Source: Candidatus Desulfatibia profunda (GTDB lineage Bacteria; Desulfobacterota; Desulfobacteria; Desulfobacterales; UBA11574). From it: 38,992 nucleotides of DNA. How positions within the stretch are numbered: the first letter of the stretch is position 1; the number at the start of each line of letters is the position of its first letter. This document shows, piece after piece, positions 715-20,473 of the stretch. The DNA lies in NCBI GenBank assembly GCA_014382665.1, contig JACNJH010000108.1:1-38992 (forward strand), given 5' to 3'. A model generated the notes under the pieces. The model ran no database searches, had not been told where the DNA came from, and saw only the letters and a list, made by a program, of their open reading frames with translations. A program made the position numbers and the translations under genes.

Positions 715-1581
715 CTATTTTATGCCCATGTAACAGACCCCGCCACAAACTGGAGAATCCTTGAACTTATCTTTCATAAGCTTGTCCAAAAAGGCAAAGG
801 GATACAAAACCCACCCGGTCATGAATCGGAAAGCATAACTGAGGGAGGGCTTTCGCGAAAAACTGCCAGCAAGCGCCATCGTCATCTGCGCCCAAGTCCC
901 CATCGGGCCGGCACCCGTCGTCCCACCTTCAACCTCATGAAAACTGCTGAATACGGAGCGAAGCCCATCCAATGTATAGCGAAAATAGTCGTGCGGTGAG
1001 CCGTGGCGGGGTTGGATAAAGGGAACGGTCACCAGTACAAATCCACCCGGTTTCAATATTCGGTACACCTCATTGCTTACGGCAAAGGGACGGTTCAAAT
1101 GCTCCATTACCGCGCACAGCCAGACGCCGTCCAGACAACCGTCAATAAAAGGCAATTGATGTGCGTCACCGGCTACGTCCGTATTCCCATGCGGGTAGAT
1201 GTCAAAATCAATTAAACCCGGATGAGTCAACTCATTCTGAACCCCGCTTCCGAGGTTCAGTATCATCGCCTCGGGTGGAGCATTAAAGATGTAGGTATCA
1301 CGCAATCTGTCATGAAGCGTCGGTCTGGCTACAATAAAGTTAGGCAAAGGCAGGAACCGCTTGAGTCGGTTTTTCAGTGAACTCGGATCATGCTGAGCGT
1401 ATGCAACTTGCCCTTCATTCGCGATGGATTGGCTATTTTTGCTGAAAAGAACCGGCGTGTCACTGATAATGGGAAAATCCCGGTCACATGGACCGCATCT
1501 CAGCTTTCCATCAACAGAAGATAGGGATGTATGACAATCAGGGCAGGCCAACAGCTTTTGTAATTTGTTTTTTTTCATCAT
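715..1581 (-). CDS. Zinc-ribbon (Trm112-like) plus SAM methyltransferase
   Basis: A 288-residue methyltransferase. The N-terminus carries a zinc ribbon with cysteines at residues 13, 16, 29 and 32, of the Trm112-like kind often fused to type-11 methyltransferases. Motif I (ILNLGSG) is at residues 107-113 and the post-motif region (RILKPGGFVLVTVPF) is recognisable in the middle of the protein. The ATG overlaps the stop of the upstream heparinase C-terminal gene as ATGA, so translation is probably coupled; a second ATG follows immediately. It is one of four distinct methyltransferases in this operon. The family methylates many kinds of small molecules and sugars, so the substrate is unknown. 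Confidence 0.85.
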   Translation of the reverse strand: MMKKNKLQKLLACPDCHTSLSSVDGKLRCGPCDRDFPIISDTPVLFSKNSQSIANEGQVAYAQHDPSSLKNRLKRFLPLPNFIVARPTLHDRLRDTYIFNAPPEAMILNLGSGVQNELTHPGLIDFDIYPHGNTDVAGDAHQLPFIDGCLDGVWLCAVMEHLNRPFAVSNEVYRILKPGGFVLVTVPFIQPRHGSPHDYFRYTLDGLRSVFSSFHEVEGGTTGAGPMGTWAQMTMALAGSFSRKPSLSYAFRFMTGWVLYPFAFLDKLMKDKFKDSPVCGGVCYMGIK

Positions 1582-2354
1582 TCCTTTTCGTCCCCAAGAA
1601 AGTCGTCGTTAATAGAGATACGCTGCGTAAAAGAAGGGTTGGACGAAAGAACCGCAATTCCTTCAAAGCATACGATTTCGGCGCTTTCCCGTCGATTATA
1701 AGCCTTGGATACCCAACCTCGTTCTTTTCTCTGTATGATTTCAAAATCAGGCGCTTCAATTTCCAAAACGATTTTCCGGTCTTGCAATATGAATATTTTC
1801 CGAACCTCATTCTCGCTTTGAAGCCCCACATCCAAGTGGTAATACCATGCAAATGAGTGTTCCCCATCACCGATAAATGTATCGGTAATTTCAACCTCGT
1901 TTTTTCTTTTGTTCAGCAGAAACTGACGGCGATGGGTAACAGGCTCGGCTAACCTGGTATACCCCGTGTGCTCAGCCTCAAGCAGGTCATGGGTTTCCTC
2001 TGATTCCCATCGCAGAACCCTGACATCACCGTGCGGACTAGTTAGACCGAACATGCTGTTATGGATTTCAATCTGCTCCCTACCGTCGACAACTACGGTA
2101 TTGTGGTATTTGGTGGAGCGGAAAAGCCTTCGCATTTCCATATTGCCGGTATAGCAGAAGGTGCCGGGGTCAATAATGATCGGCTGGTCGTCAACACAAA
2201 GCTCAAAACTGAGCCAATCGTTGTGCTTGTGTGCGCCCACGCCGTTGATGCCGATGGGTTGGCAGGCAGCCAGCAAGTAAATATGTTCCGAGCGCATGAC
2301 ATAGATGCCGCCATCGGGAAGGGCTACGGAGTTCAAGGAAGATTTTTTTATCAT
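1578..2354 (-). CDS. Heparinase II/III C-terminal beta-sandwich half (split gene)
   Basis: A 258-residue protein matching only the C-terminal, beta-sandwich part of heparinase II/III-type polysaccharide lyases. The family-typical block (GVGAHKHNDWLSFEL, then IIDPGTFCYTG and FRSTKYHNTVVVDG) is complete; the conserved His/Asn residues there help form the active site in known lyases. The helical toroid half of the same enzyme is encoded separately at 3351-4577, in the same reading frame register, with a methyltransferase gene between the two. The ATG overlaps the methyltransferase stop (ATGA), so it is likely translated by coupling. It could work as a two-chain enzyme with the other half, or be a remnant. 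In polysaccharide loci such proteins are thought to trim or edit the glycan; that role is inferred. Confidence 0.8.
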   Translation of the reverse strand: MIKKSSLNSVALPDGGIYVMRSEHIYLLAACQPIGINGVGAHKHNDWLSFELCVDDQPIIIDPGTFCYTGNMEMRRLFRSTKYHNTVVVDGREQIEIHNSMFGLTSPHGDVRVLRWESEETHDLLEAEHTGYTRLAEPVTHRRQFLLNKRKNEVEITDTFIGDGEHSFAWYYHLDVGLQSENEVRKIFILQDRKIVLEIEAPDFEIIQRKERGWVSKAYNRRESAEIVCFEGIAVLSSNPSFTQRISINDDFLGDEKE

Positions 2355-3364
2355 TCTGGTTTCCGGTAGACTATCTTTGCCGAATCCCTATGGCTCGGAG
2401 GTGTAAAAAGAAACGAGACTGGAATCATCAAGCCGAAAACAAAATCAATAGTCCGCGTTATTACGCGGCTTTTTTCGATCCAGTTTGCTATTGCGCCAAG
2501 ACTGAACAAAACCGCATCCTTACCTTTGAAAGCCACAAGGTTCCTGTAACTTGTCACCGGCCTGAGATAGCCTTTATGAATGTCCGCAAGTTCAACAACC
2601 GGCAAAAATCCGGCTTTTCGAAATCGTTTGAAGTTGGCATCGGGGAGTTCCAAGCCGTAATGACCATACTCCTCCACATAGCATTTTGAAAAGAGTTCGG
2701 GATGTTTTTTTGCCCGTTTGTAAACGATGCTTTCCGAATCGCACTCAATACTGCTGAGCAGGTATCCCCCGGGCTTCAACACCCGATAAATTTCGTTGAT
2801 AACACTGGATTTTTGATGCAGCGGGATATGCCCGAAGACATGCGATGTGTAAACACAGTCAAAAGACGCATCCGGAAACGGCAAATGTTCTCCATCGATT
2901 TGATAAACCCGGTTGTAAAGACGGCGCGCTTCGAGCAACGATGACACGGAGAGATCTACGCCCGTTACGTACCCATGTTCCGGCAAAATCCCTGCCCCCC
3001 CCCCACAGCCAAAGTCGAGAATCCAGGCTTGATCGCCATGAATAATTTTCTTGAGCTGTTTTGAGAGAAAACGGGATTCAAAGGCCCCGATGCTTATTGA
3101 GCGGTAGAAGGCCTTGAATATTTTCTTCATTCCACTATTTTGGCCAAGTGACCAATCTTTGGTCTCGGTGAATTTACCTTCATAAAACGCATCTTCCGAT
3201 CCAAAACACAATATCCCATTTTTCGCTGAAAAGACCTTTCCGCATTTATGGCAATGGGCTTCGTCATCCATATAATCAAAATCAGCTTTACAAAAAGGAC
3301 AGACCACCATCGGACCGTCAATGTCGTGGTGTAAGCCCTTTAATTGTTTCTTATAACCGCCCAT
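2351..3364 (-). CDS. Zinc-ribbon SAM methyltransferase inserted between heparinase halves
   Basis: A 337-residue methyltransferase with an N-terminal zinc ribbon (cysteines 22, 25, 38 and 41) and a type-11 SAM domain: motif I WILDFGCGGG is at residues 114-123, followed by an acidic GVDLS motif and a RVLKPGGYLL post-motif. The start at 3364 is chosen because a CGGAG ribosome binding site sits 9 nt upstream and the zinc ribbon follows directly; an in-frame ATG at 3409 would add 15 unrelated residues. The gene overlaps the end of the heparinase N-terminal half by 14 nt and its stop overlaps the ATG of the C-terminal half, so it exactly fills the gap between two domains of one enzyme. The C-terminus has a hydrophobic stretch (FGLMIPVSFLF) that may touch the membrane. 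The substrate is unknown. Confidence 0.85.
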   Translation of the reverse strand: MGGYKKQLKGLHHDIDGPMVVCPFCKADFDYMDDEAHCHKCGKVFSAKNGILCFGSEDAFYEGKFTETKDWSLGQNSGMKKIFKAFYRSISIGAFESRFLSKQLKKIIHGDQAWILDFGCGGGAGILPEHGYVTGVDLSVSSLLEARRLYNRVYQIDGEHLPFPDASFDCVYTSHVFGHIPLHQKSSVINEIYRVLKPGGYLLSSIECDSESIVYKRAKKHPELFSKCYVEEYGHYGLELPDANFKRFRKAGFLPVVELADIHKGYLRPVTSYRNLVAFKGKDAVLFSLGAIANWIEKSRVITRTIDFVFGLMIPVSFLFTPPSHRDSAKIVYRKPE

Positions 3365-4577
3365 ACTGTTCAACTCCGTCCTCCCCAAATAACCAGAAGA
3401 TTTCCTCATGCGCTCTGCCGGCCATTAATTTGAGATCCGAACGTTTAAACAGAACCGCCCCGATTGAAAGGAGATAGCGGAAATCAGAGCGATCCCAATC
3501 ATAGTAATCAGCGAGGATAAAGAACCGACCATCGTCAGAGTCTCCAATCATAGGCATCAGGCCGTCTGGCCGCATGCAGTACATAATAAATTCAAACATT
3601 TTCTCAAGGCGCTGCCAGAAGGGTGCAGGGAGCACAATGTCATTTCTTTTGCAGAGAATTGCGGAATAGGTGAACAGTTCTAAAACCAGGCGATGGTAGG
3701 CTGTTGAGTTTTCAAAGCTGACTCCATCTGGATAAACCATCTCTTCCATGCACCGAATCAATTCCTGAACCCCAAATTTCTTCCATCGTTCAGCATCCTT
3801 GAAGTGAGGGAACATAATTCCAATGAACAATAATCCTACAATATCCGAAAGGTAGTGGTTTGTCCGAATGCCTCCCTTGTCTTCAAGATTGTTCTCAATG
3901 TACCAGCCATGCTGCCAGATGCTTTTCAAAAATTTATTGTCAAACGCTTCGGTCCATTCTGGATCATCCTTGAAGGCCCACCAGGCCCATATCCAGTTGC
4001 AGGCCCGGATCGCCACCTCCATGGCGCAGGTCCAGTTGATGCCGTACAAAAACTTGTTATTTTCAATCCAGTTGTAGATTTGCCTAACGGTTTCCTTAAT
4101 ATATTCGTCACCACCAGACGCAAAATATCCCTTTATGAGAAAAGGCAAATGCTGGGACCTGGATAATTCCCATGGCATTTTACAGTCTGTGTTTTCTGAA
4201 GAATTAGAAACCGTATAAAGGCGTTTATAATATTTCCTTCTCCATTCAAAGTCGCTTCGAGGATCAAGATGCCAGTTGATTTCGCTGCCTTCGTATTCTA
4301 AATCACAACCAAGGATGGCAAATTTCCGGTGTAATATAATTGAAGCTTCGTTTAGGATTTCAGACTTTCTTTCAGGATTCTTGTCAAAAATGCTTTTTGC
4401 CTTTGAAAAGCTTATAATCCAGTTAGCTGATTTTACAGAATTACTACTTTCAAGAGAGCTCTTGTACTTCAAATCATGAAGTTTTAGGACCTTGTGAAAT
4501 ACCAATGCGGCAATAGACCAAAGAAAACCCTCAAGCCTTATCCTGTATCCTTTTCCTCGTAAGGTGAAATACTTCAC
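3351..4577 (-). CDS. Heparinase II/III N-terminal toroid half (split gene)
   Basis: A 408-residue protein corresponding to the alpha/alpha-toroid half of heparinase II/III-type lyases. Family features include the segment MPWELSRSQHLPFL, the helix block WTCAMEVAIRACNWIWAW, the RTNHYLSD segment and, near the end, PMIGDSDDGRFF. It stops after GEDGVEQYGRL, where the intact family would continue through a short linker into the beta-sandwich; that second half lies at 1578-2354. The start is a GTG that overlaps the upstream stop as GTGA, so initiation is probably coupled. No signal peptide is obvious, although residues 18-29 are hydrophobic. Whether the two halves assemble is unknown. The role in glycan processing is inferred from the operon. 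Confidence 0.8.
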   Translation of the reverse strand: MKYFTLRGKGYRIRLEGFLWSIAALVFHKVLKLHDLKYKSSLESSNSVKSANWIISFSKAKSIFDKNPERKSEILNEASIILHRKFAILGCDLEYEGSEINWHLDPRSDFEWRRKYYKRLYTVSNSSENTDCKMPWELSRSQHLPFLIKGYFASGGDEYIKETVRQIYNWIENNKFLYGINWTCAMEVAIRACNWIWAWWAFKDDPEWTEAFDNKFLKSIWQHGWYIENNLEDKGGIRTNHYLSDIVGLLFIGIMFPHFKDAERWKKFGVQELIRCMEEMVYPDGVSFENSTAYHRLVLELFTYSAILCKRNDIVLPAPFWQRLEKMFEFIMYCMRPDGLMPMIGDSDDGRFFILADYYDWDRSDFRYLLSIGAVLFKRSDLKLMAGRAHEEIFWLFGEDGVEQYGRL

Positions 4578-4918
4578 AGGCCAACCATTTTACGTGCCAT
4601 GGTGCGGTAGCCACCACCCCCGGAAAACGCTACATTATGATAAAAGGTTTCAACAATATACCCGGTCGTCTCCGGATAAGCAGCCTCCCATCCATTTCTG
4701 AATGAAAAGCCTGCTGAGACTCCGCCACAATTTGTGATATCCTGTGCGAGGCATAACCAGCGCATTGCCGCAGACAAGGCTGCCTCTATTGAAGAGGGAG
4801 CTTTCTTGTTGGGAAAACATATAGCGTACAATTTGGAGCAATTTCTAATCCTGTACAGCCGATGATTCCTGATATCCCTTAGTGGCTGTATAATGCTTTT
4901 AAAATGACTTTTCCGCAT
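4574..4918 (-). pseudogene. Truncated toroid (prenyltransferase-like) protein, N-terminal fragment
   Basis: A 114-residue open frame. It resembles the beginning of a larger alpha/alpha-toroid protein found in exopolysaccharide clusters: a segment AAMRWLCLAQDITNCGGVSAG followed by a SYPETTGYI-like motif (here AYPETTGYIVETFYH). I recall the family as several hundred residues long, but this copy ends soon after RTMARKMV with a TGA that overlaps the GTG start of the heparinase N-half. It has a good ribosome binding site (AAGGGAACACT before ATG). It is most likely a gene cut short by rearrangement but kept in the operon; a functional short protein cannot be excluded. The family assignment is from memory of the motif, not a search. 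Confidence 0.5.
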
Positions 4919-4959
4919 AGTGTTCCCTTAAAACATTGAAGCGAGTGAAATAGCAGTCC

Positions 4960-5787
4960 TCATAAACGCTTATTGTAAACTGCCCAAATACCTGCCCGCC
5001 ATTTCGGAAAAAACCGATATATCACTGGCCTGTAGCAACCATGCCAAAATGCTTTCCACAAAAAAGTCCCCTTGGTTTTCGTTCCATGATCAAAAAATAT
5101 GGTGTTAGTGCTATCTCGTGAAAAACCCGACCAATTAGCCATGCGGTCAAGATCATTTATCGAATACAGCCTGTGATGTCCTAAAAATGGGATTTTACTC
5201 TCATAAAACATTTTGAGATTCCAGTAAGGCCAATCGCCTTTCCTAAACATCGTTAATCTGCTGCCGACGTTTCCTCCGTTCGGGGTGCAGATTACCAATG
5301 AACCGTCTCTTTTAAGAATCCGGCAGAATTCATCCAAGATTAGCCGGGGAGAGTGAGGCAAATGTTCAATTACGGCTTGAAAAACCACAACATCAATGGT
5401 TTCACTGCCTATTGGGATACTCAATTCAGGTGACATAAGGTCAACGTTAAGATATGCAACCTCATGATCTTCCATGAACTTCAAGGCATTGCCAAACAAA
5501 ACCTCATCAAAGTTGGACATATTGTCAACATTTATCGCTTCATATCCCATATCTCTGAATAGCGTACTCAGGATGCCAAGGTGCCCGCCCGCATCCAGGC
5601 ATTTAGCTTTCCTAGAACCAAAGGCTTCAATACGCTTTTTCATATACGCCAGAGTCATTGCATAATGGACAAACTCGCCTTTTGCATTATCCAGCAATCC
5701 AAAAGCATCCTTTCGGGACTTCATTGCGTAGTTCTGGTTGAAGTTGTTAAACGCCAACTCTAACTTAGTAACATAGTCATTTTTCAT
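4960..5787 (-). CDS. SAM-dependent methyltransferase, type 11
   Basis: A 275-residue class I methyltransferase without a zinc ribbon. Motif I is degenerate but recognisable (KCLDAGGHLG at residues 62-71), the acidic loop follows (NVDN), and the middle contains the usual VVVFQAVIEHLPHSPRLI and RILKRDGSLVICTPNGG blocks. The ATG overlaps the flippase stop as ATGA, so the two are translationally coupled. It is probably a tailoring enzyme for the polysaccharide made by this operon; the acceptor is unknown. A gap of 41 nt separates it from the truncated gene downstream. Confidence 0.85.
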   Translation of the reverse strand: MKNDYVTKLELAFNNFNQNYAMKSRKDAFGLLDNAKGEFVHYAMTLAYMKKRIEAFGSRKAKCLDAGGHLGILSTLFRDMGYEAINVDNMSNFDEVLFGNALKFMEDHEVAYLNVDLMSPELSIPIGSETIDVVVFQAVIEHLPHSPRLILDEFCRILKRDGSLVICTPNGGNVGSRLTMFRKGDWPYWNLKMFYESKIPFLGHHRLYSINDLDRMANWSGFSRDSTNTIFFDHGTKTKGTFLWKAFWHGCYRPVIYRFFPKWRAGIWAVYNKRL

Positions 5788-11296: not shown

Positions 11297-12451
11297 TTAT
11301 GGACGAATTTTAAATGGTTGGGAATCGGTGTCGGAAATGGAAGGACTAAATGGCATGGGTATGCCAAGCCCCCCCCCAATTGAATGAACAACCCTCTCGG
11401 CAGTCTTGCCATCCCACAGGTTAATGGCAGGTACGGTCTCATTGCCGGTTGAGAGCAAAAGCAATACTTTTTCTTCAAAATTTTCCACCCGGCAAAGCTG
11501 GTTGGTTCCCCGGGATATGGTGACAGGCCGCTCTGTATTGGGCCTCAGGGTCAAACAAGGGATTCCCAGATAGGTCGTCTCTTCCTGAATGCCCCCAGAA
11601 TCCGTAATGACAAGGCGACAGTTAAATACCAGATTCATGAAACGGATGTAGCCCAACGGTTCGAGAAGGAGGATGTCTTTCGCATTTTTCAGCATGAGCA
11701 TCATCGCGTTTTGTTCCAGATTCTTTCTTGTTCGTGGATGAATCGTAAATATCAATTTGATTTTCTCGGAAATACGGCTGAGTGATTCACAGATCTGTTT
11801 CAATTTTTTCGGGTTATCCACATTGGCAGGGCGATGAAGCGTTACGACGCCATACGCTCCCTTTTTCAATCCATATTCCCTGTAAACATCATGTTCATCA
11901 ATCGTTTTTCTGAGCATCTCAAGGGAATCGATCATGATGTTGCCCACTCGAACAATCTTTTCCTGTGAAATCCCTTCCCGTAATAAATTCTCATCTCCAT
12001 CAGGCGAAGGTGTCCAGAGGATGTCGGCCAATGCATCTGTCACCACTCGGTTGATCTCCTCGGGCATTGTGCGATCGAAAGATCGAAGGCCCGCCTCCAG
12101 GTGGGCAACCTTTATCCCAAGCTTAACTGAAGCAAGGGTGGCGGCAACTGTTGAATTTACATCACCCACAACAATCACAAGGTCCGGCCTATTTGCCATA
12201 AGACATTTTTCATAGGCCATCATGACCCGTCCGGTTTGCTCCGCGTGGGTCCCGCTTCCCACACCAAGATGAATGTGCGGCGTCGGAAGCTGAAGATCCT
12301 GAAAGAATGAATCAGACATGTTAATGTCGTAATGCTGCCCCGTGTGGACGATTTGCGGATCTGCCCAGGGCTCCTTCTTTAATGCATGGAAGAGAGGCGC
12401 GATTTTCATGAAATTGGGCCGTGCCGCGGCAATAAGATGGATATGTTTCAT
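11297..12451 (-). CDS. wecB: UDP-N-acetylglucosamine 2-epimerase (non-hydrolysing)
   Basis: A 384-residue cytosolic epimerase that interconverts UDP-GlcNAc and UDP-ManNAc, supplying an amino sugar to the polysaccharide. Recognisable motifs are AAARPNFMKIAPL at the start, HTGQHYD, LEAGLRSFDRTMPEEINR and DSGGIQEE. The start at 12451 (MKHIHLIAAARPN) is chosen because the family begins here; an upstream in-frame ATG at 12490 would add 13 unrelated residues. The last 26 or so residues after ERVVHSI are unlike the family and are read across a run of nine Cs (about 11369-11377), so a one-base length error or mutation may have changed the true C-terminus. It is the first gene of the long minus-strand operon. 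Confidence 0.93.
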   Translation of the reverse strand: MKHIHLIAAARPNFMKIAPLFHALKKEPWADPQIVHTGQHYDINMSDSFFQDLQLPTPHIHLGVGSGTHAEQTGRVMMAYEKCLMANRPDLVIVVGDVNSTVAATLASVKLGIKVAHLEAGLRSFDRTMPEEINRVVTDALADILWTPSPDGDENLLREGISQEKIVRVGNIMIDSLEMLRKTIDEHDVYREYGLKKGAYGVVTLHRPANVDNPKKLKQICESLSRISEKIKLIFTIHPRTRKNLEQNAMMLMLKNAKDILLLEPLGYIRFMNLVFNCRLVITDSGGIQEETTYLGIPCLTLRPNTERPVTISRGTNQLCRVENFEEKVLLLLSTGNETVPAINLWDGKTAERVVHSIGGGLGIPMPFSPSISDTDSQPFKIRP

Positions 12452-12544
12452 AACATTGAATTTGTGCTGAGAGTGAAGGACAGAGAGCATAAAGTGTTTT
12501 ATTGGCCCCGGTTAAATCCGCTACGCTACCACAGGCGAAAGCGT

Positions 12545-12574
12545 ATTGGAGTCACCCATTAAAGGGTATGTCAA
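12545..12574 (-). promoter_or_regulatory. Possible promoter of the polysaccharide operon
   Basis: Read on the minus strand, a perfect TTGACA (12574-12569) is followed after 18 nt by TCCAAT (12550-12545), a weak -10 match. It lies about 95 nt upstream of the wecB start, the first gene of the operon. The -35 is convincing and the -10 is not. Confidence 0.35.
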
Positions 12575-12890
12575 GAGAAAAAACACCCCTCCCTGAAAAA
12601 AATGCTGTCAATTTTTTTCTTGATCTTTACTCACAACAACGCGACATCGTTTCCGTTCTGTTCCGCACCCGTTATTTCGTTTTGATCGGTTCTCCGGTCA
12701 GCACATGCTGATCCGCACCAGCTTGGCGAGGCGAAGCTGATAAGCGAAGACTGGTCACCCATCGGGATCAAGGCAATTGTGTTTTAAGCATTTGGCGGTG
12801 CTTAACGCACCAAGCTTGAAAACACAGCCCCTGGTCCATTTGGACCCCAGAAAATCTTCGGTGCCATACCGTGTTCAATTGGATGGATTA
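12575..12890. other. Gene-free stretch with RNA-like hairpins downstream of IS110 transposase
   Basis: No coding frame is supported here. The part from 12778 to 12850 is strongly structured. The arms TGTGTTTTAAGC (12778-12789) and GCTTGAAAACACA (814-826 of the same kilobase) pair with one bulge and enclose a perfect GGTGC/GCACC hairpin with loop TTAAC (12797-12811). A second small hairpin, CTGG..TCC / GGA..CCAG, lies at 12831-12850. Such stacked hairpins beside an IS110-family transposase suggest part of the element's non-coding guide RNA or its end, but direction and ends are unknown. Confidence 0.4.
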
Positions 12891-13020
12891 CAAATCTTAT
12901 GGTTATTAGCCAACCCCTGATGGACTCACGGCATGGGCGAATCAGAGTCTAATAACGATTGCCGTCTGTTGTGTGGGTGCGGCCGATACCAATCAAACCT
13001 TATGGTTTTATGCCAACCCC
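12891..13020 (+). repeat. Degenerate direct repeat, about 103 nt apart
   Basis: A 27-nt unit starts at 12891 and again at 12994, with 4 mismatches (shared core CTTATGGTT and GCCAACCCC). Each copy contains a small hairpin with the same TTAT loop. In copy 2 the stem is AAACC/GGTTT; in copy 1 one C-G pair position is a T-G wobble, so most of the pairing is kept despite the changes. The repeats lie immediately downstream of the IS110 transposase gene. Confidence 0.6.
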
Positions 13021-13046
13021 AATACCGGTTCACTGCCGCACCCAAA
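12971..13046. ncRNA. Candidate structured RNA / end element of the IS110-type insertion sequence
   Basis: A perfect 10-bp inverted repeat, TGGGTGCGGC (12974-12983) and GCCGCACCCA (13035-13044), encloses about 50 nt that contain the AAACC-TTAT-GGTTT hairpin. The base of the stem is 6 nt past the transposase stop codon. IS110-family elements are known to carry a structured guide (bridge/seek) RNA in a non-coding end; in the IS1111 subgroup it lies downstream of the transposase. The position and folding fit that idea, but a transcription terminator or terminal repeat is also possible. Confidence 0.35.
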
Positions 13047-13050
13047 CAGA

Positions 13051-14067
13051 TTATTTAAAGAGCATCCCTTCATCAAACGGCACCTGATCACGCATGATGT
13101 AATAGGATGCTCTGGCGATCTTGTTGCTCAAAGCCTTAATCGCAACGATACCGTTGGTTTTGGCTTTTTTGCTTTGATAAAAACTATGGGCCTTAGTATT
13201 ATACCGGGCAGCGAAGTTGGCGGCTTCTACATAGGCCCAGGCTAAAAACTTATTGCCGTTCTTTTTGTTGTTCTCACCTTTTTTCTTGCCATCAGAAAGC
13301 CTTTGGCTTTTTACACACCGACAATATGAAGAGTAATTACCGACTTTCGCAAAACGATGGATATCCCCTACCTCCAGCATGATGGTCAGCGCCAGAATAT
13401 TTCCAACCCCGGGAATTGTCTGCAGCAGTACAAACTCTTTACGTAGCTTGACCTGAGACTTTACTTCTTTTTCAATACTCCTGATGATCTTTTTTAAAAA
13501 ATCTATTGCGGATAAACTGTTTTTGGCCATAAACACTAAATTGGGAGAATCAAACAGGTTTTCGGCATCCGTTTCTTTGAGTTTTTTAATTTCATTGTTT
13601 GACATCTTAAACCCCAGGTTTCTGGTGATCATACTTTGCAGACTCAAAATGTGAGCTGTTCGGTGCCGGACGAATAAAAGTCTGCGCCGCAATAAATCCC
13701 TTACCGGCCGATGCTCCCTTGGATAAATATACCCCTCGGGCAATATGTTTAACCGCAACATATGGGCCAGCCAGAAGGAATCCCACTTATCATCGGTATG
13801 TTTAAGTCCTCCATATTGCTTTATCGCTGCGGGATTGGCCAAATGGAGGTTGTATCCATGTTCCATCAGTCCGTCTACCAGCCAGTACCAATTATAAGTC
13901 GATTCAACAACAACCCCCACAAGCCGATCTTTAAACGGCTCCAGAGCCATCAACACACGACTTAATTCGTTCGGTATGCGTTTGCCATAAAGCCTTTTGT
14001 CATTATCATCGATAATGCCAAGGTAATTATTGCTTGAATGTAAATCGATTCCGGCATAAGCTTTCAT
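13051..14067 (-). CDS. IS110-family DEDD transposase
   Basis: A 338-residue transposase. The N-terminal RuvC-like domain shows the acidic residues expected for the DEDD set: Asp8 (YAGIDLHSS), Glu55 (VVVEST), Asp93 and Asp96 (TDDKWDSFWLA). The C-terminal Transposase_20 domain has the helix-hairpin-helix-like TIPGVGNILALTIMLEVGDI and a serine-containing VGNYSSYCRCVKS segment, where this family has its second catalytic residue. The length is normal and the frame is intact, so the element may be active. An AGGAGGT ribosome binding site lies 5 nt before the ATG but is partly locked in a hairpin. The non-coding flanks may encode the guide RNA of this family. Confidence 0.9.
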   Translation of the reverse strand: MKAYAGIDLHSSNNYLGIIDDNDKRLYGKRIPNELSRVLMALEPFKDRLVGVVVESTYNWYWLVDGLMEHGYNLHLANPAAIKQYGGLKHTDDKWDSFWLAHMLRLNILPEGYIYPREHRPVRDLLRRRLLFVRHRTAHILSLQSMITRNLGFKMSNNEIKKLKETDAENLFDSPNLVFMAKNSLSAIDFLKKIIRSIEKEVKSQVKLRKEFVLLQTIPGVGNILALTIMLEVGDIHRFAKVGNYSSYCRCVKSQRLSDGKKKGENNKKNGNKFLAWAYVEAANFAARYNTKAHSFYQSKKAKTNGIVAIKALSNKIARASYYIMRDQVPFDEGMLFK

Positions 14068-14138
14068 AAGACACCTCCTGGTTGATAGTGGGTTTTGGGG
14101 TAAATTGACTTTCCCACTTTAATCAGTAGAGGTGTCTT
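14068..14138 (-). promoter_or_regulatory. Leader hairpin sequestering the transposase ribosome binding site
   Basis: The transposase mRNA leader can fold with a perfect 10-bp stem, AAGACACCTC (14068-14077) against GAGGTGTCTT (14129-14138), around an inner 6-bp stem AGTGGG/CCCACT (14087-14092 and 14113-14118). The ribosome binding site AGGAGGT (complement of 14073-14079) lies largely in the outer stem. Only transcripts starting upstream of or inside this element would fold fully, the way some insertion sequences (IS10, IS50) block translation from read-through RNA. Confidence 0.6.
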
Positions 14139-14145
14139 TTATCAA

Positions 14146-14209
14146 GCGCGTCAGGCTGTAGTGACATTTAGCGAAGCGGTCCGTAAGGAAAATGTCACGC
14201 TTGACGCGC
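14146..14209. repeat. Imperfect long inverted repeat between two transposase genes
   Basis: The left arm starts GCGCGTCA and ends TGACATTT (14146-14168). The right arm reads AAATGTCACGCTTGACGCGC (14190-14209). They match at both ends with a few unpaired bases in the middle; the loop is about 20 nt. It lies between the IS110 leader and the REP-type transposase. It may be the end of one of the elements, a REP-like palindrome used by the tyrosine transposase, or a two-way transcription barrier. Confidence 0.55.
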
Positions 14210-14336
14210 AACCCCTAAAGATACAAAATCCTAAAGGGTATATAGTTTCTTCGACAATAAACCCTTTATATGAATATCAAACCTTGATCAGCATATTAAA
14301 TTGACATTCTGTTAATCATATGTTGCCAGAACAGAC

Positions 14337-15302
14337 ATGGCTAGACCGTGGCGAATTGAATTTGAAGGTGCTCTGTATCATATCCTTGCACGAGGCAATC
14401 AAAGGCAGGATATTTTCCTAAATGATGCTGATCGTCGCCTTTTTTTGGACACCCTTGGCCAGATGGCGTCCCGGTACGACATCGACATTTATGCCTATGT
14501 ATTGATGGGCAATCATTATCACCTTTTGTTAAAAACCCATAACGCCAATCTATCAAAAGCCATGCAGTGGTTTGGAACCACTTACACGCGGCGATTCAAT
14601 ATCGGTCACAACTGTTCCGGCCATTTATTTCAGGGCCGTTTTAAAAGTTTCATCGTTCAAAATGATGCTTACCTGACGCAGCTTTCCTGCTACATTCATC
14701 GAAATCCGCTTCGAGCGGGGATTGTTCAGCGGCTGGCCGATTATCATTGGAGCAGCTACCTGGTGTATGCTTACAGGAAGAAAGCTCCCAAGTGGCTCAA
14801 TATCGGTTTGATCTTGTCGCAATTTGGCATCAAAGATCCTCATCAAGCTTATCGAAGAAAGGTAAAAAATTATTCTAATGAAGAACGGTCTCTGTTTGAA
14901 GATTTGCGATACGGACTATTTTTGGGGACAAATAGCTTTGCCGATACGCTCAAGAAACAATTTGTAAAAACTACCCTGCAGTCGGACCTTCCCCAGCAAG
15001 TGAAGTTAGTCAAGGATCTTGATACTGAAACGACCCCAGAGAAACTTGCACAGGCACTTAATTGTCGCGTGGATAACTTTAGAAAGTCATTACGCATTTC
15101 CAAGGCAGATAAAATGAACCGGGATCTGATGCTTTATCTTTTATGGAATTCCGGGATTTTTACAAACCGGCAAATTGGCGAGTTGTTAGGGCTGTCGTAC
15201 TCATCTGTGAGCAGGCGTGCAGCCATGGTAAGAAAAAGCATCCAAAGGGATGAAGTTTTGCTGAATAAAGTTCAGCAACTAAATGCTTTAATCAAGGTCT
15301 GA
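14337..15302 (+). CDS. REP-associated tyrosine transposase (RAYT, Y1 family)
   Basis: A 321-residue single-strand DNA transposase of the IS200/REP type. The HUH-like metal motif is His60-Tyr61-His62 (MGNHYHLLL), and the likely catalytic tyrosine is Tyr119 in SCYIHRNPLRAG. The N-terminus MARPWRIEFEGALYHILARGN is typical of the RAYT branch. The C-terminal part carries a helix-turn-helix (FTNRQIGELLGLSYSSVSRR, residues about 274-293) like those found in many RAYT proteins. The family processes REP palindromes. Gene length is normal and the frame is intact. It is transcribed opposite to its neighbours and ends in a twin hairpin at 15321. Confidence 0.9.
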   Translation: MARPWRIEFEGALYHILARGNQRQDIFLNDADRRLFLDTLGQMASRYDIDIYAYVLMGNHYHLLLKTHNANLSKAMQWFGTTYTRRFNIGHNCSGHLFQGRFKSFIVQNDAYLTQLSCYIHRNPLRAGIVQRLADYHWSSYLVYAYRKKAPKWLNIGLILSQFGIKDPHQAYRRKVKNYSNEERSLFEDLRYGLFLGTNSFADTLKKQFVKTTLQSDLPQQVKLVKDLDTETTPEKLAQALNCRVDNFRKSLRISKADKMNRDLMLYLLWNSGIFTNRQIGELLGLSYSSVSRRAAMVRKSIQRDEVLLNKVQQLNALIKV

Positions 15303-15320
15303 CCCCATTTACTGTTCTGA

Positions 15321-15378
15321 TCCCGTCCTGCTGAAAACGGGACGGGAGTTGTATAAAATCGTGAAGCGATTTTATTTT
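15321..15378. terminator. Twin hairpins, bidirectional terminator
   Basis: The first hairpin pairs TCCCGTCC (15321-15328) with GGACGGGA (15340-15347). The second is a perfect 9-bp stem, ATAAAATCG/CGATTTTAT, with a 5-nt loop (15353-15375), followed by a TTTT run. It separates the convergent tyrosine transposase (plus) and the 65-residue protein gene (minus), and the AT-rich stem gives a T tract on either strand. Confidence 0.65.
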
Positions 15379-15574
15379 AAAGTTTAAACTTCCAGTTTTT
15401 TTCGGATGGTTGCAGAATGCGTTTTCTTTTGTTGACACAGCCGATACAATTGCAGCCTTTGGTTAATGGATGCGCGCCTAATTTTTCAGCCAGCTTGAAG
15501 CCGGCATCAATCATTTCAACGATCATCCGGTGTTGTACTGTGTATGAATTATCTTTTTTAACACGCTTCTTCAT
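15377..15574 (-). CDS. Small cysteine-containing protein of unknown function
   Basis: A 65-residue basic protein that I do not recognise. The middle is a predicted amphipathic helix (RMIVEMIDAGFKLAEKLGAH), followed by a compact cysteine motif CNCIGC and a KRKR stretch. The ATG overlaps the stop of the upstream nucleotidyltransferase (ATGA), so the two are surely co-translated. Being a small partner of a nucleotidyltransferase, it could be an antitoxin, but nothing in its sequence proves this. The three cysteines could bind a metal if the protein dimerises. Confidence 0.6.
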   Translation of the reverse strand: MKKRVKKDNSYTVQHRMIVEMIDAGFKLAEKLGAHPLTKGCNCIGCVNKRKRILQPSEKNWKFKL

Positions 15575-16191
15575 AATTTAAACGGCCCTTCTTCGTTTTC
15601 ATCATTTGAGACCCGATCAAGATATTTCTCGATCAGCTTTCTCTGACCGAAACGGTCTGCAAACAGGTATATCCTGGCTCTGTCAAGCGGTTCAAAATAG
15701 TCGGGAAGCAATCGGTTTCGATAAATCTGCATGAAGGCTGATAGATCCGCCTCATCTTTTATGCTCCGGTCAGGATTATTGGCAATAGCCATCATCTTTA
15801 AAATAATGTAGTCCGCCGGCTGAACAACAGGAAGTTTTCCCAGCAATTCGTCTTCAACGACAATACTGCGGTTTAAAATAGCTACTCCGTCCGGTGTGTT
15901 GACAAACATGAAATCAATATACCCCATAGCCCCGAGTTCAGATTCAAATTGAGCAAACGCATCCGTCTTTTGATAGCAGCTATATCCCAGCCTTTCCATT
16001 ATCGAATCAAGTGGGGGCCACAGGCGACCTTCGACGATCAGATCAATGTCAGATGTAAACCTGGGAAGGCCGTACAGCCCCAAGGCTATCGCCCCTATTA
16101 CCGCAAAAGGAATCTTATTTTGGGTTAAATTTCGCGAAATTATCTCCAATACTTTATTCAGCTTTTCGGTCAGGATTATATTATCCACCAC
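15571..16191 (-). CDS. Nucleotidyltransferase-fold protein (MNT / AbiEii-like)
   Basis: A 206-residue protein with the nucleotidyltransferase signature near the N-terminus: AVIGAIALGLYGLPRFTSDIDLIV (residues about 30-53), where the DID acids would bind magnesium. Later acids (YIDFMF) could supply the third catalytic carboxylate. It resembles the AbiEii/minimal nucleotidyltransferase group used in type IV toxin-antitoxin and abortive-infection systems, but also many uncharacterised relatives. The start is one of two adjacent GTG codons; AAGGA lies 6 nt upstream of the first. It is followed, overlapping, by a 65-residue partner gene. It sits downstream of the ring-nuclease gene in an island rich in transposases. 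Confidence 0.75.
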   Translation of the reverse strand: MVDNIILTEKLNKVLEIISRNLTQNKIPFAVIGAIALGLYGLPRFTSDIDLIVEGRLWPPLDSIMERLGYSCYQKTDAFAQFESELGAMGYIDFMFVNTPDGVAILNRSIVVEDELLGKLPVVQPADYIILKMMAIANNPDRSIKDEADLSAFMQIYRNRLLPDYFEPLDRARIYLFADRFGQRKLIEKYLDRVSNDENEEGPFKL

Positions 16192-16300
16192 ACACCATCC
16201 TTATAAACTCTTTCCTCCTTTTTGATTTGATTATTCACCTGTACGATAATCACTCGAAATTTGCAAGAAATGAAAGCCTTTAAGGCATTTAGGTAAAATA

Positions 16301-17425
16301 TCAAAATACAATTTCAATTTTTGCTTTGTCCATCAGAATGCCGTAGCGAGTGTTTGGCCGGTTTCCCACGGAAGCGATTTCAAGCTCTTTTAAGGCATAT
16401 GGGCCGAACCAGCTCTGAAGATTTTCTTTTATTCTGCTTTTATAGGAATTGAAGTTGTCCGCATTCAGGCCGGTGATGCCGGAATCGCTCATCTCGTTTA
16501 CGGGCCGCGTGCCGCAAACTTTGCGGTACAGATCCGTTATTTGATCTTGCTTGTCAAAAACAGTTTGAATGTCGATAAAACAATCGACGCAGTTGCCGCA
16601 ACTTTCAGTTTCCAAGGTGCAGTTTTTTTTCTGCATGGCGAAAAAAGCATACAGGGCCATGCGAGTCGGCATCATGTCGGATTCCAGGCCTTTATAGACA
16701 AGTTTTTTGGATACCAGGTTTACGACCAGGCGCGAGCGGTCTTCCTTGATCAAAGACAGCAGCAGCGTGCCCGGATCTTTGGGTTCTTTTAACAGATCCG
16801 CCGATAGCTGCTCTCGGATGGAGACAAAGGGAATGTGGATCAGGTTGATCTGGGCGTATTTGGTTTCCTTGTAAAAGGTCTGTCCATGGTTATTTCTAAG
16901 CTCGATAGTCCTGGATTCTTTGGGCGGGTAGAAAAAGTTGCGATTGCTTTCAAATTCCGGCGTGACCAGCACATGATAAAGACGATCTTGCGGGCGGCCA
17001 TACATCTGGGCCGCCAGGGTAAGACAGGAACTCATGGTCTTGCGGCCGCCGGCCACCGAAAAGAACACCGCCTTGTCCGGATCTTTGGTAAAGTGAAACG
17101 TCAATTCCAAGCATTTTTTTAGCAGATGTTCGTTATCCGATTCGCTTACGATATCCGAAATCTCGATGCCGTGTTCGTCGGAAATCACGTGAATATTGCG
17201 ATGGCCGAAATCGATGGCTGAAGCATCGAAACCGTATTCCGAGAGGTATCGGTAATAATGCCCTTCGTTTCCGCTGAGAAGCTCTGCATAGATCTTTTCT
17301 TTGCCGTCTCTGGTGGTGATCACATGGATGGCATCCACGCGGCGGTTGTCCTGATGCAAAGCATAAAGTGCTTCTGTAATCACCTGGGGGCTTAATCCGG
17401 TTACGGCCAGTAAAATGTGTTTCAT
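16301..17425 (-). CDS. CRISPR-associated CARF / ring-nuclease protein (NE0113 / Csm6-like family)
   Basis: A 374-residue protein of the family originally named after NE0113 and now regarded as CARF-domain, cyclic-oligoadenylate-responsive proteins. The N-terminus MKHILLAVTGLSPQVITEALYAL and the motif FFSVAGGRKTMSSCL (in the first half) are diagnostic; the latter lines the ligand site in CARF domains. The C-terminal third contains a Cys-rich cluster (CTLETESCGNCVDC) that may bind a metal. The start at 17425 overlaps the cas6 stop as ATGA; an in-frame upstream start at 17494 would add 23 unrelated residues. In intact systems it would sense or degrade the second messenger made by Cas10, but no cas10, effector or array is in the window. 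The frame is undamaged, unlike its cas6 neighbour. Confidence 0.8.
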   Translation of the reverse strand: MKHILLAVTGLSPQVITEALYALHQDNRRVDAIHVITTRDGKEKIYAELLSGNEGHYYRYLSEYGFDASAIDFGHRNIHVISDEHGIEISDIVSESDNEHLLKKCLELTFHFTKDPDKAVFFSVAGGRKTMSSCLTLAAQMYGRPQDRLYHVLVTPEFESNRNFFYPPKESRTIELRNNHGQTFYKETKYAQINLIHIPFVSIREQLSADLLKEPKDPGTLLLSLIKEDRSRLVVNLVSKKLVYKGLESDMMPTRMALYAFFAMQKKNCTLETESCGNCVDCFIDIQTVFDKQDQITDLYRKVCGTRPVNEMSDSGITGLNADNFNSYKSRIKENLQSWFGPYALKELEIASVGNRPNTRYGILMDKAKIEIVF

Positions 17426-18396
17426 GTCAATCGCTCCGCACTGATTTTCCCTAAGCCGAATGCGGTCTGCTTTCCCATGTGAACTTTGGAACAAAAATCA
17501 ATCAGCGGCATATATTCACCGATTTTTCCTTCGTAAGTTATTGAACCGATCAGGCCCCCCATAAGCATGGCCCGGTCCTGACGCTGTGAATATCGCTGCC
17601 AGTCAAACCAATCAAGATCGGCTTCAACAATCGAAACGTCCCGGGCTCTTTCTACAAGTCCACGGTAATCCATGTCCGGTTCGCCGTTTCCATAGTAATG
17701 CATCAGCGATGACACCCGCCTGAGCATCGCTCTGGCAAGAACATGAAACGGCAGATCAGCCTTGAGGCGATTTTCAAATTTTATGCGCAAAGGCGTATCT
17801 AAAATAACTTTGACTCTAAAAGTGCCTCCTATGTTTGCAGCTTGCTCGTTAAAGGAAAGTGTTCCCAAGACATCTGTTGTATTCAACTTTTGATCCGTGT
17901 CCGAGTATATAATGCGATCATCATATTTCACTGATTTCAGGACGAACTGGCCGCGACGCATGTTAATTTTTTTACCGATGCCGATTTTGCCCATTTGATC
18001 GATAGCGTAAACAAAGTAAGGAAGGCTGTTATTGACTTCACCGAATAGCAGCAGATTAAAATCAAAGTCCGATCCTTTCTTGAAATTGGTTTCAGGGGTT
18101 TGAGGAGGCTCAATCACAAATGGATGAGGCGGTGAATTGTCTCTAGAGCCCTCGACCGGCTGAAAAACCGATTGGGTTTCAAAAACCAGCGCATAGATGC
18201 AGCGCTCTTTAAGCAGGCACTCGTGACATTCCTGTCTTTTCAATGCACAGGCCACCTTTTTTAAGGCATGGCCGAATACGCCTCTGAATGTTGATCCCTA
18301 ACGAGGAGTTCGCTGTAGTGTTCAAAAACTCATCCGCAGGTAATCAAGTGGAATTTTATGGAATTTTGCTTGGATTTGTGCTTTACTGGACTTCAC
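17422..18396 (-). pseudogene. cas6: cas6 (pre-crRNA endoribonuclease) with two in-frame stops
   Basis: The frame from 18297 to 17422 encodes most of a Cas6 RAMP-type endoribonuclease: GSTFRGVFGHALKK, the paired cysteines of ECHECLLKERC, HPFVIEPP, and the glycine-rich C-terminal loop VHMGKQTAFGLGKI. Upstream in the same frame are a TAG (18298-18300) and a TGA (18322-18324). Beyond these the frame stays open to a GTG at 18396 with a perfect AGGAGG 9 nt before it, and this leader (ending IPLDYLRMSF) looks like a Cas6 N-terminus. Read through the stops, the protein would have the normal family length of about 320 residues. A GTG at 18255 could start a shortened protein but has no proper ribosome site and cuts into the conserved domain. 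The gene is probably dead. It overlaps the ring-nuclease gene by 4 nt. Confidence 0.75.
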
Positions 18397-18660
18397 TTGC
18401 GGTGGCCTCCTGGAATAGGTTGATTATTTGCCATATAATCGTTTTATAACCTTATTTCATAGGCCTCTGCAAGCTATTTACCTCTCATTTTTTCACTTTT
18501 TATGCAACTACAGGGTTACCTTTCATGATACCGAAATTGTCAGACTTTCCAAGCAGGGGTTGAAAATGGCACTGAGAGTATGACGGAAAAAATGGGGGCT
18601 CTGTAACCCGGCTTGGAGTTTTAAAGGAACGAGTTTTTAAATTTGGACAAAAGGAACAAA

Positions 18661-19137
18661 ATGAACAAGTATATATTCAAGACGTTAGTGATATTCTTGG
18701 CCCTGCTCATCTGCGGTTGCACCTCATGGGTTAAAGGCTACGGCAAGATCAGATACATGCGGGGCGAAAAAGATGCGGTGACGATTCAGGATTTAATCAA
18801 CAACTGGCAAGATTACGACATCTACTATGCCGGCCTGGATGTCCGGTTGCCGCTGGGCATTATGTTCGATCCTAAAAACAACACCACCGCGCTGGCAGGA
18901 AGGTGGTGGAAAAAGGTCGAGGATCAAAAAACCCTGATTGAAATCACCGAGTGGATTTATCCGCATACCCGATATTATCCGGAACTCAGCAAAATTTTAG
19001 GGCCGGATGATCAATTCTACGGCTACTTGTATCATTCCTATGGCTTCGTTTTTCTGAAGCTGATCGATGACAACAAGATGTATGTTTACGATCTTGAGGA
19101 CCCCAATGACAGGGGTGAAGGTTCGGACTCTTTTTAA
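18661..19137 (+). CDS. Small outer-membrane-type lipoprotein, Slp-like in size
   Basis: A 158-residue predicted lipoprotein that I do not recognise beyond its export signal. The signal peptide MNKYIFKTLVIFLALLICGC ends in a clear lipobox (LICGC), with the lipid-bearing cysteine at residue 20. The rest has several WW/Y-rich segments (AGRWWKKVED, FYGYLYHSYGFVFLKL) compatible with a beta-rich fold. The ATG at 18661 follows an AAGGA ribosome binding site 6 nt upstream; a TTG at 18643 is in frame but less likely. The 264 nt before it up to the cas6 start hold no recognisable gene. The MFS gene converges on it from the right. Confidence 0.7.
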   Translation: MNKYIFKTLVIFLALLICGCTSWVKGYGKIRYMRGEKDAVTIQDLINNWQDYDIYYAGLDVRLPLGIMFDPKNNTTALAGRWWKKVEDQKTLIEITEWIYPHTRYYPELSKILGPDDQFYGYLYHSYGFVFLKLIDDNKMYVYDLEDPNDRGEGSDSF

Positions 19138-19180
19138 CTGCGAGGATAACCGGACCAGACAGGTGAAACCGCAACGTTCG

Positions 19181-20473
19181 TCAATGCGGATACGTCTCTT
19201 TCATCAGAAAAGTACAGATCAGCGAGACCACGGAAGCCCCCAGCAGGATGAGGAGGAGCATTTTGTAGCCCTCCAGAGAATAGCCCCCGGCAGCTGTTTT
19301 AGGATAAGCATCCAAGACCCGGCCCAAAAGCGGCATGAATACGGCGCCGCCCAAGAATGGAAAGAGATTTACCATGCCGGTTGAGGTCCCGGCCATTTCC
19401 ATCGGAAAAAGCTCCTTGATCAAGGTAAACCCGATAATGACCACCGACGACGCGCAGATGGAAAAAACAAAGAACCAGATACCCAGGACGCCGGAGGAAA
19501 GGCCGTTCGGAAAAAGGTTGAGAAATACAAGCTCAACGACCAGCAGCAAGGCACAGAGAATAAAAGGCTTCTTGCGGCTCTTCATAATTTTATCCGACAA
19601 AAGTCCCAGCGGAGGGCTGCCCACAATCATGCCCCAGGCGATCATACTCAAGATGGCCCCGGCTTGGGATCTGGTCATGCCGTAGACATGCATGAGATAC
19701 GGTCCGCCCCAGAGGGCTCCGAAACCGAAAAATATCCCGCAATCGAAAAAAAACCAAATTGCCACCGGCCAGAAGTATTTTTCAGAGACAACCCGGCGCG
19801 CCCCTTCCAGCAAAGGGATCTGTTGCGGCACCTGAGAGGGTTCGCCATCCTTATGATCGATTTGGGGAATGGAAGGCCAGCCTTTATCCGCGGGGCGGTC
19901 CCTGACAATTATCCAGACCAGAGCTACGATGACGAAGGTGCCGGCACCGATCAGCTCAAAAGAGATTCGCCAGCCGAGCACTCCGGTTATCAACGCAAGC
20001 AGCCATGTGGCTGCCAGAACCCCTATTCCTCCGATTGCGTTCAAAATACCTGTCATGAATGCAAACTCGCGTGTTCGAAACCACTGGGAAAGGATCTTCA
20101 TGGTCGGGATAAAGACCATGGAAACACCCACTCCCACCATAACTCTGCCGATAAGCGCAACTCGGATGGTCGCTGCAAGGCCGAAAACAATGCTTCCGGC
20201 AGAGGCGATGATCAGGAAAAAGGCTACCGATTTTCTGGGGCCCAGGGAGTCTGATAAAAGTCCGGCCGGAAACTGCATGGCGGCATAGCAGTAAAAGTAG
20301 ACGGAGCCCAAAAACCCCATAACACTGGCGGTGGTTTGAAAATCCTTTATCAAATCATTGGCGACCACGGACAACGAAAGGCGATGAAAATACACAAAAA
20401 AATAGGCCAGGGCAAGTACCAGGAAAATCAGCCACCTGAAGCGCAACACCTTTGCAGCCAGAGTTTCATCCAT
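19181..20473 (-). CDS. Major facilitator superfamily transporter
   Basis: A 430-residue inner-membrane transporter with about 12 hydrophobic segments. The first cytoplasmic loop has the family motif GLLSDSLGPRKS (residues about 71-82), and the corresponding loop of the second half is GLLSDKIMKSRKK. The signature YFFVYFHRLSLSVV in helix 1 resembles anion/organophosphate or glycerol-3-phosphate-type MFS members, but the substrate cannot be read from the sequence. It has a purine-rich ribosome site (GGAAAAAGAG) directly before the ATG. It is monocistronic and divergent from the cNMP-binding gene, with about 500 nt between. Confidence 0.88.
   Translation of the reverse strand: MDETLAAKVLRFRWLIFLVLALAYFFVYFHRLSLSVVANDLIKDFQTTASVMGFLGSVYFYCYAAMQFPAGLLSDSLGPRKSVAFFLIIASAGSIVFGLAATIRVALIGRVMVGVGVSMVFIPTMKILSQWFRTREFAFMTGILNAIGGIGVLAATWLLALITGVLGWRISFELIGAGTFVIVALVWIIVRDRPADKGWPSIPQIDHKDGEPSQVPQQIPLLEGARRVVSEKYFWPVAIWFFFDCGIFFGFGALWGGPYLMHVYGMTRSQAGAILSMIAWGMIVGSPPLGLLSDKIMKSRKKPFILCALLLVVELVFLNLFPNGLSSGVLGIWFFVFSICASSVVIIGFTLIKELFPMEMAGTSTGMVNLFPFLGGAVFMPLLGRVLDAYPKTAAGGYSLEGYKMLLLILLGASVVSLICTFLMKETYPH

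Follow-up and report, generated by a model that had tools for sequence, protein, structure and literature searches.

The two domains of a heparinase II/III-type lyase in Candidatus Desulfatibia profunda are encoded by separate genes, with a complete methyltransferase gene between them. On balance, we favour an insertional fission after which the two chains, likely made by coupled translation, re-pair.

Organisation of the split locus

The window analysed here is an entire contig (C108, 38,992 nt) of a 3.85-Mb genome assembled in 293 contigs. The features considered are the following.

3351..4577 (-): N half, heparinase II/III-type (alpha/alpha) toroid, own gene (GTG start, 408 aa, TAA)
3351..3364 (-): 14-nt overlap of the N-half end and the methyltransferase start (ATGGGCGGTTATAA)
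2351..3364 (-): complete zinc-ribbon class I SAM methyltransferase between the halves (337 aa)
2355..3353 (-): 999-nt insert, from the N-half linker codon Leu408 to the first C-half codon
2351..2354 (-): ATGA overlap of the methyltransferase stop and the C-half start
1578..2354 (-): C half, heparinase II/III beta-sandwich, own gene (ATG start, 258 aa)
1578..1581 (-): ATGA overlap of the C-half stop and the second methyltransferase
715..1581 (-): second zinc-ribbon (Trm112p-like) methyltransferase, overlapping the C-half stop by ATGA

On the minus strand, frames of 408 aa (4577-3351), 352 aa (3409-2351) and 258 aa (2354-1578) follow one another. The initial annotation described them as two lyase halves with a complete zinc-ribbon methyltransferase between, and both the open reading frames and the Pfam domains agree with this. 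The N half matches PF16889 (Hepar_II_III_N) with 134.4 bits against a cut-off of 22 (profile positions 69-323 of 340) and the C half PF07940 (Hepar_II_III_C) with 161.2 bits against a cut-off of 24 (positions 5-226 of 237). The middle gene matches Methyltransf_11 with 73 bits, preceded by CxxC..CxxC motifs read from the sequence. The scores of all three genes are far beyond chance.

With its longest start, the methyltransferase frame opens at 3409 (352 aa). Since a GGAG is present upstream of the ATG at 3364, within the N-half reading frame, and none precedes 3409, the start is better placed at 3364. The protein is therefore 337 aa long and its gene overlaps the N half by exactly 14 nt, so that the overlaps first noted at every junction, 14 nt and then ATGA, hold. 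The halves also lie in one frame register, as had been observed, with 999 nt between the last N-half sense codon and the C-half ATG; this register is without coding meaning because each half has its own start and stop. The second methyltransferase (715..1581) is outside the lyase itself and probably shares an operon with the lyase halves.

Directly upstream of the N half, a 114-aa frame (4574-4918) looks like the front of a longer gene. It shares 51% identity over 65 aa with the beginning of a frame in another locus (L092) that measures at least 316 aa. It has no Pfam match and ends where the N half begins. This gene looks truncated, and the locus has therefore been rearranged. Other observations concern the contig more generally. 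Its left end (about 1-190) is of poor sequence, with homopolymers of 21 C and 9 T that break a methyltransferase frame (47-748), probably through an error of sequencing or assembly. Ten consecutive G (2995-3004, minus strand) fall in the SAM-binding loop of the inserted methyltransferase, where the frame is open and the count may be uncertain. Adjoining Cas6 and Cas_NE0113 genes are present at 16301-18255, and no CRISPR array was found near them in 12400-20000. Between the polysaccharide cluster and these cas genes lie an IS110-type transposase, a Y1 (IS200-like) transposase and an AbiEii-like nucleotidyltransferase (13051-16191).

The insert lies in the interdomain linker

We defined the linker as the stretch between the conserved motifs (F)W-x-F-G and P-x-x-G (S-x-x-G in L084). 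In the closest single-frame homologues (L075, L082 and L084) it is exactly 22 residues long. The N chain of the window continues for 10 residues past the first motif and its C chain has 12 ahead of the second, which also makes 22. Moreover, the joined window linker scores 47 against those of the three homologues, while the mean for shuffled tails and heads is -57, with no shuffle out of 20,000 as high as 47. The summed length and the matching residues thus indicate that the 999-nt insert entered without loss. A clean insertion into the interdomain linker, one of the readings offered in the initial annotation, is strongly supported by this exact length, by the linker similarity, by the domain boundary in solved structures and by the single-frame homologues. 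The locus shows what is expected of insertional fission: single-gene homologues are the rule, the two parts complement each other with neither overlap nor loss, and a foreign ORF separates them.

Could the two halves have been brought apart by a false joining of contigs or strains across 2351-3409? The poor left contig end with its long homopolymers, the ten-G run in the methyltransferase and the fragmentation into 293 contigs would be compatible with such an error. However, two independent false joins would be needed, both falling at the domain boundary, both keeping a matching 22-residue linker and creating gene overlaps. In addition, no repeat linking the two junctions and no target-site duplication was found, the source genome holds no second copy of either half, and a split in the same linker occurs in other assemblies (see below). 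We consider an assembly artefact very improbable.

As the 999-nt insert is a multiple of three, one could also imagine that the gap is bridged after transcription or translation, by an intron, a split intein or ribosome bypass, to give one chain. This is the least credible of the explanations considered. Neither a group I or II intron nor any other RNA family was detected in an Rfam scan of 1500-5000 (one sub-threshold match is likely due to chance). The junctions consist of native linker only, and the chain ends, which sum to that linker, leave no room for intein parts. Furthermore, a complete methyltransferase frame, which has a start site of its own, takes up the insert.

A PL12-type active site divided over two chains

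Structure models were obtained for the N half (pLDDT 91, pTM 0.90) and the C half (pLDDT 87, pTM 0.87). On HepC (4mmh) the N model covers residues 32-384 (Z 16.9) and the C model 383-624 (Z 25.6, rmsd 2.3). Two other structures are covered end to end, Alg17c (4nei; N model 30-367, C model 367-667) and 4fnv (N model 46-416, Z 19.8; C model 415-668), and further solved structures are likewise matched by the two models together. By sequence, the best PDB matches are 4MMH/5JMD for the N half and heparinase III/HepC for both domains. On the HepC equivalog families NF045573 and NF045572 of NCBIfam, the N half scores 87 and 49 bits and the C half 25 and 25, against cut-offs of 700 and 600. Two-domain PL12-like lyases are single polypeptides; here the domains are in separate genes, each with a start and a stop, 999 nt apart.

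The catalytic residues of the PL12 heparinase III (4MMH) are Asn240, Tyr294 and His424 (PMC12088678). In our profile alignment these are chain positions 216, 270 and 400, with a constant offset of 24. Asn240 (3858-3860) and Tyr294 (3696-3698) of the N half are placed by this alignment, a comparison of sequences, opposite Asn240 and Tyr294 of HepIII, and His42 (2229-2231) of the C half opposite His424. All three catalytic positions are conserved. Since the Asn and Tyr are carried by one chain and the His by the other, the PL12-type active site is divided over two polypeptides. We infer that the chains of the window lyase must pair for activity, and a two-chain function appears likely. More broadly, the window retains 58 of 74 highly conserved columns in the toroid and 19 of 22 in the sandwich.

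Alternatively, the toroid chain alone could act as a one-domain lyase, similar to the PL5 and PL38 alginate lyases, the sandwich chain being now a separate binding or accessory protein. PL5-kind lyases use a toroid Asn, His and Tyr. The N half has an Asn-His pair (240-241) as well as Tyr294, and the one-domain toroid lyases 3nfv, 8bdq and 1qaz are found among its structural matches. Nevertheless, its sequence groups with two-domain heparinase III (PF16889, with 4mmh/5jmd as best matches), and the C half keeps the catalytic His together with adjoining invariant residues, which a mere binding protein would not need. This alternative therefore seems improbable.

The lyase is encoded by one gene in most relatives

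The initial annotation called for a search of related genomes for an intact single-gene version and for the same split; both were found. We scanned about 85,000 species, with one genome per species, for the toroid half and kept 80 loci. Toroid and sandwich are in one frame at 77 of these; a contig end truncates two more, and the remaining locus, L074, is split. Thus the halves do not normally exist as independent families, as the relatives normally have one gene. Among 395 genomes of the phylum, PF07940 had 57 matches, six of them in frames shorter than 300 aa (the window, two in genome G201, two in G430 and one at a contig edge). Relatives from the order and the phylum are nearly all single-frame, and no other split heparinase was seen among the matches listed from 389 genomes of the order. 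The searches gave no close relative of the window locus; a single-protein scan of genome contigs with the C half as query returned no relatives, and a search of viral contigs gave none. Mixed alignments were too diverse for motif patterns.

The short frames of the phylum were considered individually. In G430, the two short C-domain frames (L196 484-1143 and L197 5307-5933) were rejected as splits, as they are very similar pseudogenes whose toroid part is internally deleted. G201 has two C-half frames starting at the linker (L064 2211-2969 and L042 213-2168). One follows a shortened toroid frame after 78 nt and the other a low-complexity stretch at a contig end. Both fall in a distant subfamily and probably arose in events of their own.

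The same linker is interrupted in Methanophagales

In separate N and C trees, the rows nearest to both window halves are halves from Methanophagales (ANME-1). The gene is present in 3 of 53 Methanophagales genomes and is split in all three, in the same linker. In G525, an intact toroid frame is followed by a small frame of 96 aa (antitoxin-like by eye, without a Pfam family) and then by the sandwich frame. G554 has a toroid remnant, VapB-like and PIN-domain genes (PF01850, 2e-18) and the sandwich frame, and G560 a frameshifted toroid, a small frame of 84 aa and the sandwich frame. Remnants of one VapB start are retained in both G554 and G560, and ATGAC opens the sandwich frame at nearly the same place in all three genomes. 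It follows from these common remnants and the common start that the split predates at least G554 and G560. In the interrupted region (L164, reverse complement 4373-5063; L165, reverse complement 1347-1601; L074, 1474-1764), different small antitoxin-like or VapBC genes are found in each genome, that is, toxin-antitoxin gene turnover at one site.

Among the ANME-1 genomes, the sandwich has a dN/dS of 0.12-0.16 and the toroid one of 0.12-0.23. These values favour a sandwich chain that stayed functional once split off. The evidence on the toroid is mixed because it is broken in two of the three genomes, and part of the purifying selection may predate the split. As judged by the frameshifted toroid in one genome and the remnant in another, the split can lead to loss.

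In a 28-row tree, the window and ANME-1 fall on one side of a branch with weak support (59/22). When same-order relatives are added, the window moves beside a long-branched single-frame pair (90/94); in that tree, forcing the split rows into one group is 8.2 log units worse, a cost that does not reject a single origin (p-AU 0.144). The linker of heparinase II/III may tentatively be regarded as a recurrent natural site of fission or insertion. It would be used in bacteria and ANME-1 with different cargo (a methyltransferase, VapBC, other antitoxin-like genes), the two chains still forming one enzyme, so that split lyases with a divided active site persist. We put this forward as a possibility somewhat short of even.

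The inserted methyltransferase

The nearest relatives of the methyltransferase (METHYLTRANSFERASE) in the phylum, with 38 and 37% identity, are located in other polysaccharide clusters, next to glycosyltransferase, epimerase or FemAB-like genes (named by eye). No heparinase lies beside these two in the 3.7 kb read. The polysaccharide cluster of the window itself includes several methyltransferases, the inserted one among them. At the other split loci, the halves are separated by a toxin-antitoxin module or by no gene, and for this reason we prefer to read the methyltransferase as cargo and not as a third subunit. The earlier suggestion that it is made stoichiometrically with the lyase halves finds no support beyond the overlapping genes.

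Discussion

Taken together, these results make an evolved two-chain lyase plausible. We infer it from the complete halves, from the intact and divided catalytic residues and from the split nearest relatives, which are mostly under purifying selection. On this reading the ancestor carried, within an exopolysaccharide gene cluster, a single heparinase II/III-type gene of about 640-720 aa that encoded toroid, 22-residue linker and beta-sandwich. Sequence comparison shows that a methyltransferase gene entered the linker with no loss of linker codons; the upstream gene now stops after 10 linker residues and the downstream gene opens at an ATG 12 residues before the sandwich motif. The overlapping genes are probably translated from one message, and the sandwich chain may be re-initiated at the ATGA. 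The toroid chain (Asn240, Tyr294) and the sandwich chain (His42) would fold apart and pair across the normal interdomain interface to form one active site, neither chain alone holding the full PL12-type catalytic set. The methyltransferase, as cargo, probably modifies the same polysaccharide and would not be a lyase subunit.

The main rival to fission with re-pairing is decay. Here the insertion would have inactivated the lyase, the frames being still open because the event is recent, or one half persisting by chance, and only the methyltransferase would matter. Several observations are in line with this. Two of three ANME-1 genomes have a broken toroid half, the two G430 C-domain frames are internally deleted, the G201 toroid frame is shortened and the upstream neighbour in the window (4574-4918) is truncated. 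Moreover, of 48 highly conserved positions the window toroid has retained 39, fewer than the majority of single-frame relatives (median 98%). On the other hand, both window frames are full length and each has its start or its end at the domain edge. The catalytic residues are retained, and an overlapping ATGA opens the second chain. The separately encoded ANME-1 halves, for their part, diverged under purifying selection (dN/dS 0.12-0.23). We therefore regard decay as unlikely, while giving it serious weight, and retain fission with re-pairing as the preferred reading.

Compared with known systems, the window lyase shares its domains (PF16889 and PF07940), fold and catalytic Asn, Tyr and His positions with heparinase III/HepC of PL12 (4MMH, 5JMD, 4FNV). 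In contrast to HepC, which is one chain, it is encoded by two genes, falls far under the NCBIfam HepC cut-offs, has no clear signal peptide (by eye) and is located in an exopolysaccharide synthesis cluster. Its nearest single-chain relatives are heparinase II/III proteins of exopolysaccharide clusters (Nitrospira, Desulfallas, Omnitrophota and others; L075-L153). Many of these have the same sandwich His-Asn-Asp motif, and in the loci read the neighbours resemble those of the window (wecB-like epimerase, asparagine synthase, bi-domain oxidoreductase). Unlike the window genes, they are one uninterrupted frame of about 620-1080 aa. In the split ANME-1 heparinases (L074, L164, L165) the C half begins 10-11 residues before P-x-G-G, compared to 12 in the window. 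The genes between are a VapBC-type pair or small antitoxin-like frames instead of a methyltransferase, and the toroid is broken in two of three, whereas that of the window is a full-length frame.

Insertional fission has been described for the mitochondrial cox2 of Campsomeris, where inserted ORFs gave two complementary genes whose products are presumed to pair; the proposed agent was a nuclease ORF, and the paper reports evidence for transcription and translation of both genes (PMC5374615). The window resembles this case in that an insertion divided one gene into complementary genes, but cox2 concerns an animal mitochondrion and another protein. Split genes, including insertional fission with complementary products, are thus already known. 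A split heparinase-type lyase appears to be new, as no report of one was found in the open-access papers searched.

If both chains are made and pair, this would be a natural split polysaccharide lyase with its catalytic residues on two polypeptides. It would mark a place where the fold tolerates cutting, useful for the design of controllable split lyases, and would provide a clear example of a gene that survives being interrupted by a cargo gene. With the archaeal cases, decay and persistence can be compared at one site.
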